From contig NZ_AP025627.1 in the NCBI RefSeq assembly GCF_022846435.1, positions 1,274,001 through 1,338,000 on the forward strand: a DNA stretch of 64,000 nt. The letters run 5' to 3'. Both the position numbers and the translations under genes were made by a program. A model generated the notes under the pieces. That model was not told the origin of the DNA and ran no database searches. It was given only the letters and a program-made list of their open reading frames with translations. The stretch is from Parageobacillus sp. KH3-4. GTDB taxonomy: Bacteria > Bacillota > Bacilli > Bacillales > Anoxybacillaceae. Of this stretch, positions 2,817-49,452 are shown in pieces. How positions within the stretch are numbered: position 1 is the first letter of the stretch; each line of letters starts with the position of its first letter.

Positions 2817-2825
2817 TGGTATACT
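2817..2825 (+). promoter_or_regulatory. Extended -10 promoter upstream of ypfD
   Basis: TGG followed by TATACT forms an extended -10 element; no good -35 is found at 17 bases. It would start a transcript near 2832, giving ypfD a leader of about 115 bases. Confidence 0.5.
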
Positions 2826-2828
2826 AAA

Positions 2829-2923
2829 TAGAAAAACGGTCCTATTGCACGCCATAACCGATCATAGTCTGGAGTGGTAAGCGATGACGTAGAAGGCGCG
2901 TTTTTCTATGGAGCACGGACCGT
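2829..2923 (+). ncRNA. Candidate structured 5' leader of ypfD with overlapping pairings
   Basis: Two long-range perfect pairings share bases. Bases 2829-2838 are complementary to 2899-2908 (10 bp), and 2836-2842 are complementary to 2917-2923 (7 bp). They overlap at 2836-2838, so they are either mutually exclusive or, with the first shortened to 7 bp, form a pseudoknot. The second pairing ends about 11 bases before the AAGGAGG site of ypfD. S1-family genes are autoregulated in some bacteria; that this one is controlled through the leader is inference. No known riboswitch class is recognised. Confidence 0.45.
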
Positions 2924-2948
2924 CAGTCGATTTAAGGAGGGTTTGCAA

Positions 2949-4112
2949 ATGACAGAGGATATGAATTTACAAGTGAACGTATACAAGGTAGGTGATATCG
3001 TTCGCGGAAAAGTGGTAAAGTTAGAAGATAAGCAAGTGCTTGTCGATATTGAAGGAAGCAAACAAAGCGGGATTATCCCAATTAGCGAATTATCGAGTTT
3101 GCATATTGACAAAACAAGTGACGCCGTTTCTGTCGGCGATGAAGTGACAGCGAAAGTAAAAAAAGTGGAAGAAGGCGAAAATGAAGAAGATGGGTTGCTG
3201 ATCTTATCAAAGAAAGCAGTGGACGCTGAGCGCGCTTGGGAAGAATTAGAGAGAAAATTTGCTAGCGGGGAAACGTTTGAAGTCGTCGTGAAAGACATCG
3301 TTAAAGGCGGACTCGTTGCCGATGTTGGAGTGCGCGGATTTATCCCTGCCTCTCTCGTAGAGCCGCACTATGTCGAGGATTTTTCCGACTACAAAGGCAA
3401 GATGCTTGCGGTCAAAGTGGTAGAGCTTGATCGTGAAAAAAATCGCATCATTTTGTCGCATCGTGCCGTCGTGGAAGAAGAGCAAGAGCGCCAGCGCAAG
3501 GAAGTATTTAGCCGTTTAGAGCCAGGGCAAGTGCTTGAGGGAATTGTGCGCCGCATCACCGATTTTGGCGTGTTTGTGGATGTTGGCGGCTTTGATGGTC
3601 TCGTACATATTTCCCAGCTTTCCCATACGCGCGTCGCACATCCGTCCGATGTCGTGCAAGAAGGGGAAACGGTGAAAGTAAAAGTGCTTTCCGTTGACGA
3701 GGAAAACGGTCGTGTCTCCCTTTCTATGAAAGAAGCAATGCCAAGCCCTTGGGAAGGGATTGCCGAAAAAATCGCTCCTGGCGACATCGTCACTGGTAAG
3801 GTGAAGCGGCTTGTGCCGTTCGGTGCGTTTGTTGAAATTTTCCCGGGTGTCGAAGGGCTTGTTCATATTTCGCAAATCTCCAATAAGCGCATCGGCACCC
3901 CGCATGAAGTGCTAAAAGAAGGGGAAGAAGTAAAAGCAAAAGTGCTTGATGTAAATGAGGACGAACATCGTATCTCGTTAAGTATACGCGATTTAATCGA
4001 GGAAGAAGCGGCTTCTGAGGAAGACTATAGTCAATATGCAAATCTGTCAAACGAAGTAAGAGGCTTCCAAATTGGCGAAGTAATTGGTGAGCAGCTGAAA
4101 AAATTAAAATAA
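2949..4112 (+). CDS. ypfD: 30S ribosomal protein S1 homologue YpfD (four S1 domains)
   Basis: A 387-residue RNA-binding protein made of four S1/OB-fold repeats, roughly residues 15-85, 103-170, 188-258 and 275-345. The last two show the hallmark GxVxRxxDFGxFVDV / PFGAFVEI and GLVHISQ. Low-G+C Gram-positives carry this shorter S1-like protein, which may aid translation initiation or RNA handling but is not a tight ribosome component. The open frame reaches back to 2874, but a full AAGGAGG site lies before the ATG at 2949. fni follows after 12 bases. Confidence 0.92.
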   Translation: MTEDMNLQVNVYKVGDIVRGKVVKLEDKQVLVDIEGSKQSGIIPISELSSLHIDKTSDAVSVGDEVTAKVKKVEEGENEEDGLLILSKKAVDAERAWEELERKFASGETFEVVVKDIVKGGLVADVGVRGFIPASLVEPHYVEDFSDYKGKMLAVKVVELDREKNRIILSHRAVVEEEQERQRKEVFSRLEPGQVLEGIVRRITDFGVFVDVGGFDGLVHISQLSHTRVAHPSDVVQEGETVKVKVLSVDEENGRVSLSMKEAMPSPWEGIAEKIAPGDIVTGKVKRLVPFGAFVEIFPGVEGLVHISQISNKRIGTPHEVLKEGEEVKAKVLDVNEDEHRISLSIRDLIEEEAASEEDYSQYANLSNEVRGFQIGEVIGEQLKKLK

Positions 4113-49230: not shown

Positions 49231-49288
49231 GCATCCGTCTAGAAAAATTGTGACAATTTTGTTAAAATACAAACGTACAAGGAGAAGG

Positions 49289-49452
49289 GCAGTATCTTCT
49301 ACGAAAGAACTGCACCGAAACAAGTAAGTGACAATTCAATAAAAAAACGCGATCTGCCTTGATCCTTAGAAGGACTTGGACAGAGGGATGAACTCGACCG
49401 ATTGTGGCTATAAGTGTCCTTCTTTCTCAAGGTAGAGAAAGAAGGTTTTTTT
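49289..49452 (+). promoter_or_regulatory. panBCD leader: attenuator, candidate pan-motif RNA
   Basis: First hairpin: GCAGT (49289-49293) and TCTT pair with AAGA and ACTGC (49309-49313), leaving a bulged A at 49294. Antiterminator: AGAAGGAC (49368-49375) is complementary to GTCCTTCT (49416-49423). That right arm overlaps the terminator stem 49418-49428/49435-49445 (11 bp perfect) with a T7 run. The two are mutually exclusive, so transcription into panB is likely switched in the leader. The pan RNA motif with bulged adenosines is known upstream of panB in Firmicutes; membership here is inferred. A TAAAAT at 49263-49268 may be the -10. Confidence 0.65.

Follow-up and report, generated by a model that had tools for sequence, protein, structure and literature searches.

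The ypfD leader of Parageobacillus and its relatives: a family-restricted 5' structure, probably of an ordinary kind

The gene ypfD lies at positions 2949..4112 of the 64,000-nucleotide stretch of Parageobacillus sp. KH3-4 DNA analyzed here (the whole stretch, taken from a 3.82-Mb genome, is called the window), and sequence and domain matches identify its product as an S1-like protein with four S1 domains (PF00575, four stretches). The genes here run cmk (Cytidylate_kin), plsC (Acyltransferase), ypfD, and then one for an FMN-dependent enzyme, and all leader features described below are on the forward (+) strand. Between the end of plsC at 2786 and the start of ypfD at 2949 lie a putative extended -10 promoter element, TGGTATACT, at 2817..2825, and the Shine-Dalgarno sequence of ypfD, AAGGAGGG, at 2934..2941. 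A first-pass annotation of this DNA had proposed that the ypfD leader contains two overlapping long-range pairings forming a switch or a pseudoknot. Our comparison with related genomes indicates that the leader fold is real and restricted to the bacterial family of the window, and that it is probably a structured leader of an ordinary kind.

ypfD leaders were read from 41 genomes of this family, whose nine genera are labeled g1 to g9, g1 being the genus of the window and g7 its nearest relative, and from about 70 further Bacilli. The sequence TATGGTATA[AC]TA was found in every examined ypfD leader of g1, g3, g5, g6, g7, g8, and g9, and the extended -10 TATGGTATAMTA followed by AGAAAA is a mark of g1, g3, g5, g6, g7, and g8; g9 shares this extended -10 and has a different start sequence, and ypfD of g2 and g4 has a TTGACA-type promoter. 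The extended -10 that had been reported just upstream of the pairings is present, and it is conserved in these seven genera. The element places the expected transcription start at about 2831-2832, and a distance of 7 nt past the -10 gives 2832 as the expected +1 of the ypfD mRNA. The literature consulted contained no published regulation of a ypfD leader and no Geobacillus start-site map. In several g3 genomes (L020-L025), similarity to the plsC 3' end has been lost in the region 5' of the ypfD promoter, since the DNA match to the window begins further downstream.

Helix 1 (P1) joins TAGAAAAACG, at 2829..2838, to its perfect complement CGTTTTTCTA, at 2899..2908, over 10 bp, and helix 2 joins ACGGTCC, at 2836..2842, to its perfect complement GGACCGT, at 2917..2923, the end of which is 10 bases ahead of the Shine-Dalgarno sequence. 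They are the sole Watson-Crick helices of at least 6 bp within 2829-2948, and they have bases 2836-2838 in common and cannot both form in full; the first description of a 10-bp and a 7-bp perfect complement sharing three bases was exact. As DNA, helix 1 gains the pair A2828-T2909 and reaches 11 bp (2828-2838/2899-2909), two or three of which are probably upstream of the transcript; a scan of gene-upstream stretches in the window likewise gave 11 bp for this leader. Because the expected start is 2832, the pairs 2829/2908 and 2830/2907, and with them bases 2829-2830 of the 5' strand, are probably untranscribed. Helix 2 is separated from the Shine-Dalgarno sequence by CAGTCGA (2924..2930), within which AGTYGA is conserved in g1, g3, g5, g6, g7, and g8.

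Among 1000 dinucleotide shuffles of the leader, a helix of at least 10 bp arose in two and the overlapping combination of 10 and 7 bp in none, and the mean number of helices of at least 7 bp per shuffle was 0.21. With gene-upstream stretches of the 64-kb window as the background, a perfect helix of at least 10 bp occurs in 6 of 45 stretches of 120 bases, the ypfD leader included, and helix length alone is therefore weak evidence. The same frequency favors the main rival explanation, incidental structure near a promoter, according to which the leader is transcribed, the pairings are without function, and only the promoter, the sequence at the start site, and the region of ribosome binding account for the conservation; taking all the evidence together, we consider it rather doubtful. 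It draws further support from the 130-nt leader as a whole, whose folding energy is no better than that of shuffled sequences (z-score -0.74); the first 85 nt of the window leader are slightly more stable than shuffles (z about -2).

The minimum-energy fold of the leader contains helix 2 and is a nested three-way junction, in which helix 2 would close two predicted hairpins, P2 at 2843..2886 and P3 at 2888..2910, and the consensus fold of g1 and g7 also has a hairpin immediately 5' of GGACC that overlaps P3 in part. Because the 3' strand of P3 is the U-run that helix 1 needs, the states with helix 1 and with helix 2 would be mutually exclusive and would not form a pseudoknot. An H-type pseudoknot, in which both helices are present at once and the initiating ribosome is blocked or trapped, would fit the strand order 1a-2a-1b-2b, and the 8-nt stretch 2909-2916 between the 3' strands could in g1 span a shortened helix 1. 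This proposal is nevertheless disfavored, and we regard it as very improbable: the three-base overlap would leave helix 1, without the shared ACG, with A-U pairs plus one G-C, the computed minimum is the nested fold with helix 2 alone, helix 2 is kept and helix 1 lost in g7 and g5, both helices occur together in the reported register in g1 only, and the strand spacing in g3 and g6 is, on a geometric reading, too short for the H-type.

The predicted balance between the two helices in g1 depends on the transcription start site. At 37 °C, helix 1 and helix 2 are predicted at 39% and 37%, respectively, for a start at 2830, at 11% and 60% for a start at 2831, and at ~0% and 65% for a start at 2832; at 60 °C, helix 2 is ahead for all starts tested and helix 1 is at 18% or less. 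In all three g1 species, themselves closely related, the predicted openness of the Shine-Dalgarno sequence is 0.48-0.56 with helix 1 and 0.80-0.84 with helix 2. These openness values, together with the common bases 2836-2838 and the near-equal energies for a start at 2830, are consistent with a regulatory switch in g1, moved by YpfD, temperature, or another signal between helix 1, with a less open Shine-Dalgarno sequence, and helix 2, with a more open one. Such a switch seems unlikely to us, since the pair of helices is not co-conserved outside g1, helix 1 all but disappears at the expected start and stays low at 60 °C for every start, and the alternative pairing available in g3 and g6 is several kcal/mol dearer. 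The idea of two alternative states holds as far as the near-equal energies for a start at 2830 and fails at the expected start. Less probable again is the fuller version for g1, in which helix 1 would conceal the 5' end together with part of the ribosome-binding site, both would be exposed with helix 2, and YpfD or temperature would shift the balance.

A transcription attenuator, in which a hairpin of A-tract and U-tract ending in CGTTTTTCT would stop a share of transcripts, was also considered. A hairpin followed by U5 is found in g1 and g6, but g3 and g8 have just 3-4 U, a terminator scan gave zero sites at this hairpin, and the U-tract lies within the stem. Because the U-tracts of relatives are so short and the terminator scan found nothing, we rejected this explanation, which has very little probability left.

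Across the family, the helix 1 5' strand, of the recurring form AGAAAA[AG][CT][GA], is AGAAAAACG in g1, AGAAAAGCG in g3 and g6, and AGAAAAGTA/G in g8. Its homologous partners are CGTTTTT in g1, CGCTTTT in g3 and g6, and TGCTTT in g8, and in these four genera the 3' strand is 18-29 nt upstream of the Shine-Dalgarno sequence. Run on g6 alone and on g8 alone, RNAalifold returned unprompted a 5' hairpin with helix 1 at its base, and single-sequence folds contain helix 1 in most g3 leaders; helix 1 is broken in g7 (two mismatches) and in g5. As a workaround for MAFFT, which misplaces the helix 1 3' strand in g8, per-genus consensus folds were combined with a gapless alignment of the helix only, in which paired cells amount to 80% in register and 51-69% when the strands are slid. 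Pair 7 of the helix varies between A-U and G-C, pair 8 between C-G and U-G, and pair 9 among G-C, A-U, and G-U. There are 5 double-change cells, compared with a shuffled mean of 1.9, and 2 of 500 shuffles were as high. The similar place of the 3' strand in g1, g3, g6, and g8, with what amounts to about two compensatory changes, argues against incidental structure.

Helix 2 has a different distribution. ACGGTCC/GGACCGT is identical in g1 and g7, a change of A2836 to G in g5 leaves a G-U pair, and GGACCGTCAGTCGA is found at the 3' strand in g1, g5, and g7; RNAalifold within g1 and g7 gave helix 2 and the adjacent hairpin. No compensatory changes were found among g1, g7, and g5, and helix 2 is without covariation support because it is invariant where it is strong. 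In g6, and in roughly half of g3, a shifted helix 2 of 5-6 bp is possible but would be several kcal/mol less favorable than helix 1; the remaining g3 sequences and g8 cannot form helix 2. Compensatory changes in both pairings had been suggested as a check, and covariation would also be expected of an autoregulatory ribosomal-protein leader: helix 1 has such changes in two pairs, helix 2 has none, and no family-wide consensus structure emerged. By the refuting condition first proposed, the lack of covariation, the idea is refuted for helix 2 and not for helix 1. A conserved switch is not supported by this distribution, in which helix 1 is lost in g7 and g5, helix 2 in g8 and ~half of g3, and neither helix is found in g2 and g4; the turnover of helices between genera and their absence from g2 and g4 also count in favor of incidental structure.

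Pairing of the 5' end itself is more widely kept. In seven of nine genera, pairing between the first 14 nt and the remainder of the leader is stronger than in shuffled sequences (median p <0.08 each), which speaks against incidental structure, and the combined Fisher p is 8.5e-5 over nine genera and 4.3e-5 over six, the lineages not being independent. The stability of the first 85 nt exceeds that of shuffles in almost every leader of the family. That the leader is transcribed and structured, as first suggested, is supported. We tentatively favor, at a little short of even chances, the reading that the ypfD leader is a lineage-specific structured 5' leader affecting mRNA lifetime or basal translation.

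In the favored reading, the leader would span the distance from the family's own extended -10 promoter to the ribosome-binding site, and its constant feature would be that the first ~14 nt of the mRNA are held by long-range pairing to a segment that lies 5-30 nt ahead of the Shine-Dalgarno sequence, the partner having turned over between genera while the pairing itself was kept. In g3, g6, and g8, the very 5' end would be in helix 1 and the leader would form one long 5'-terminal hairpin; in g1 and g7, the preferred partner would be GGACCGT, with helix 2 closing the nested three-way junction; and in g1, both partners would survive as mutually exclusive alternatives. The structure would be a passive one that guards the 5' region against 5'-dependent decay while the ribosome-binding site stays mostly unpaired, with no ligand- or YpfD-controlled switching; the Shine-Dalgarno sequence is indeed predicted to be mostly unpaired in most family leaders. 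BsRppH of B. subtilis requires two or more unpaired nucleotides at the 5' end, with a preference for at least three (PMC3997798), so the hairpins beginning from nt 2-3 in g3, g6, and g8, whose stems are predicted to start at the 5' end or a few nt from it, could protect the mRNA.

Several results weigh against the favored reading. RNAalifold on the family-wide MAFFT alignment gave zero consensus pairs, an outcome that also suits incidental structure and that is due to the misplaced 3' strand in g8; the helix-only alignment of helix 1 was fitted by hand, and its compensatory changes represent about two events. For single leaders, the p values of 5'-end pairing are modest (0.01-0.07, some 0.3-0.4), and the g2 and g4 leaders have neither helix. 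The preferred fold of the window leader leaves 4-6 nt free at the 5' end, and a role in 5' protection would for this reason be weaker there.

Stem-loops at the 5' end are an established means of mRNA protection in Bacillus, the aprE leader being a named example. The ypfD leader resembles such stabilizers in having a stem from the mRNA 5' region beside a strong Shine-Dalgarno sequence, but it differs in its predicted long-range closing helix and variable interior and in the free 5' nucleotides of the window's fold. S1 proteins autoregulate in gammaproteobacteria, and the rpsA leader through which this happens is likewise structured and precedes a gene whose product has S1 domains; no common structure or Rfam match links it to the ypfD leader. 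The pseudoknot operator of rpsO (S15) is similar in that distant segments pair close to where ribosomes bind the mRNA of a translation-related gene, but a pseudoknot in the ypfD leader is disfavored and not conserved. No described RNA class had been thought to fit, and Rfam 15 at the gathering threshold gave no match for the window leader or for leaders L004, L008, L010, L015, and L026; a search at E-values up to 5 yielded nothing useful, the best sub-threshold hit having 14 bits against a threshold of 35.1. Elsewhere in the window, positions 49286-49387 match the pan motif (Rfam RF01749, 57.6 bits), which is known as a candidate cis-regulatory RNA.

The ypfD leaders of other Bacilli have features of their own. 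In 60 of 69 of them (L061-L075, L148-L207), TTGACA is present, and 60 of the same 69 have a non-consensus -10 region, TTAGAAGTTA (GAAGTT with a spacing of 17 bp, or AGAATTT as a variant), whose conservation suggests that the promoter is of a special type or that a factor site overlaps it; the family of the window has the extended -10 in place of this odd -10. An order-wide motif upstream of the Shine-Dalgarno sequence looked promising by eye and proved weak, with single columns mostly below 0.5 bits, and a 5'-terminal hairpin as a general ypfD feature of Bacillales was rejected for a slight excess only (mean z -0.68, standard error of the mean 0.17, n=60). Brevibacillus-type leaders (L065, L070, L076-L082, L105; about 1310-1500) are long, with strongly conserved blocks, namely GTATAGAA, GAATACTA, TGCTCCCGCTTC, and GGGACTGGATGGTATT before the Shine-Dalgarno sequence; the four scanned had no Rfam match, and judged by their sequences, they are possibly better candidates for regulatory leaders than that of the window. 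The g2 and g4 leaders (L028-L030, L141-L147) share a conserved hairpin of another kind, AATGGACGAGC...GTTCGCCCATT, and their stability exceeds that of shuffled sequences (z about -2.8).

If the two-state version for g1 were true, the Bacilli would have an autoregulatory leader of the S1 type that is specific to one lineage, and if the structure is incidental, the case illustrates how easily a pattern of overlapping pairings can be mistaken for a switch from one sequence. Should the favored reading hold, the ypfD leader would be a small case of helix turnover, in which the first bases of an mRNA stay paired while their partner is replaced between genera, and it would offer a handle on the expression of YpfD, a poorly understood S1 homologue of the Bacilli.
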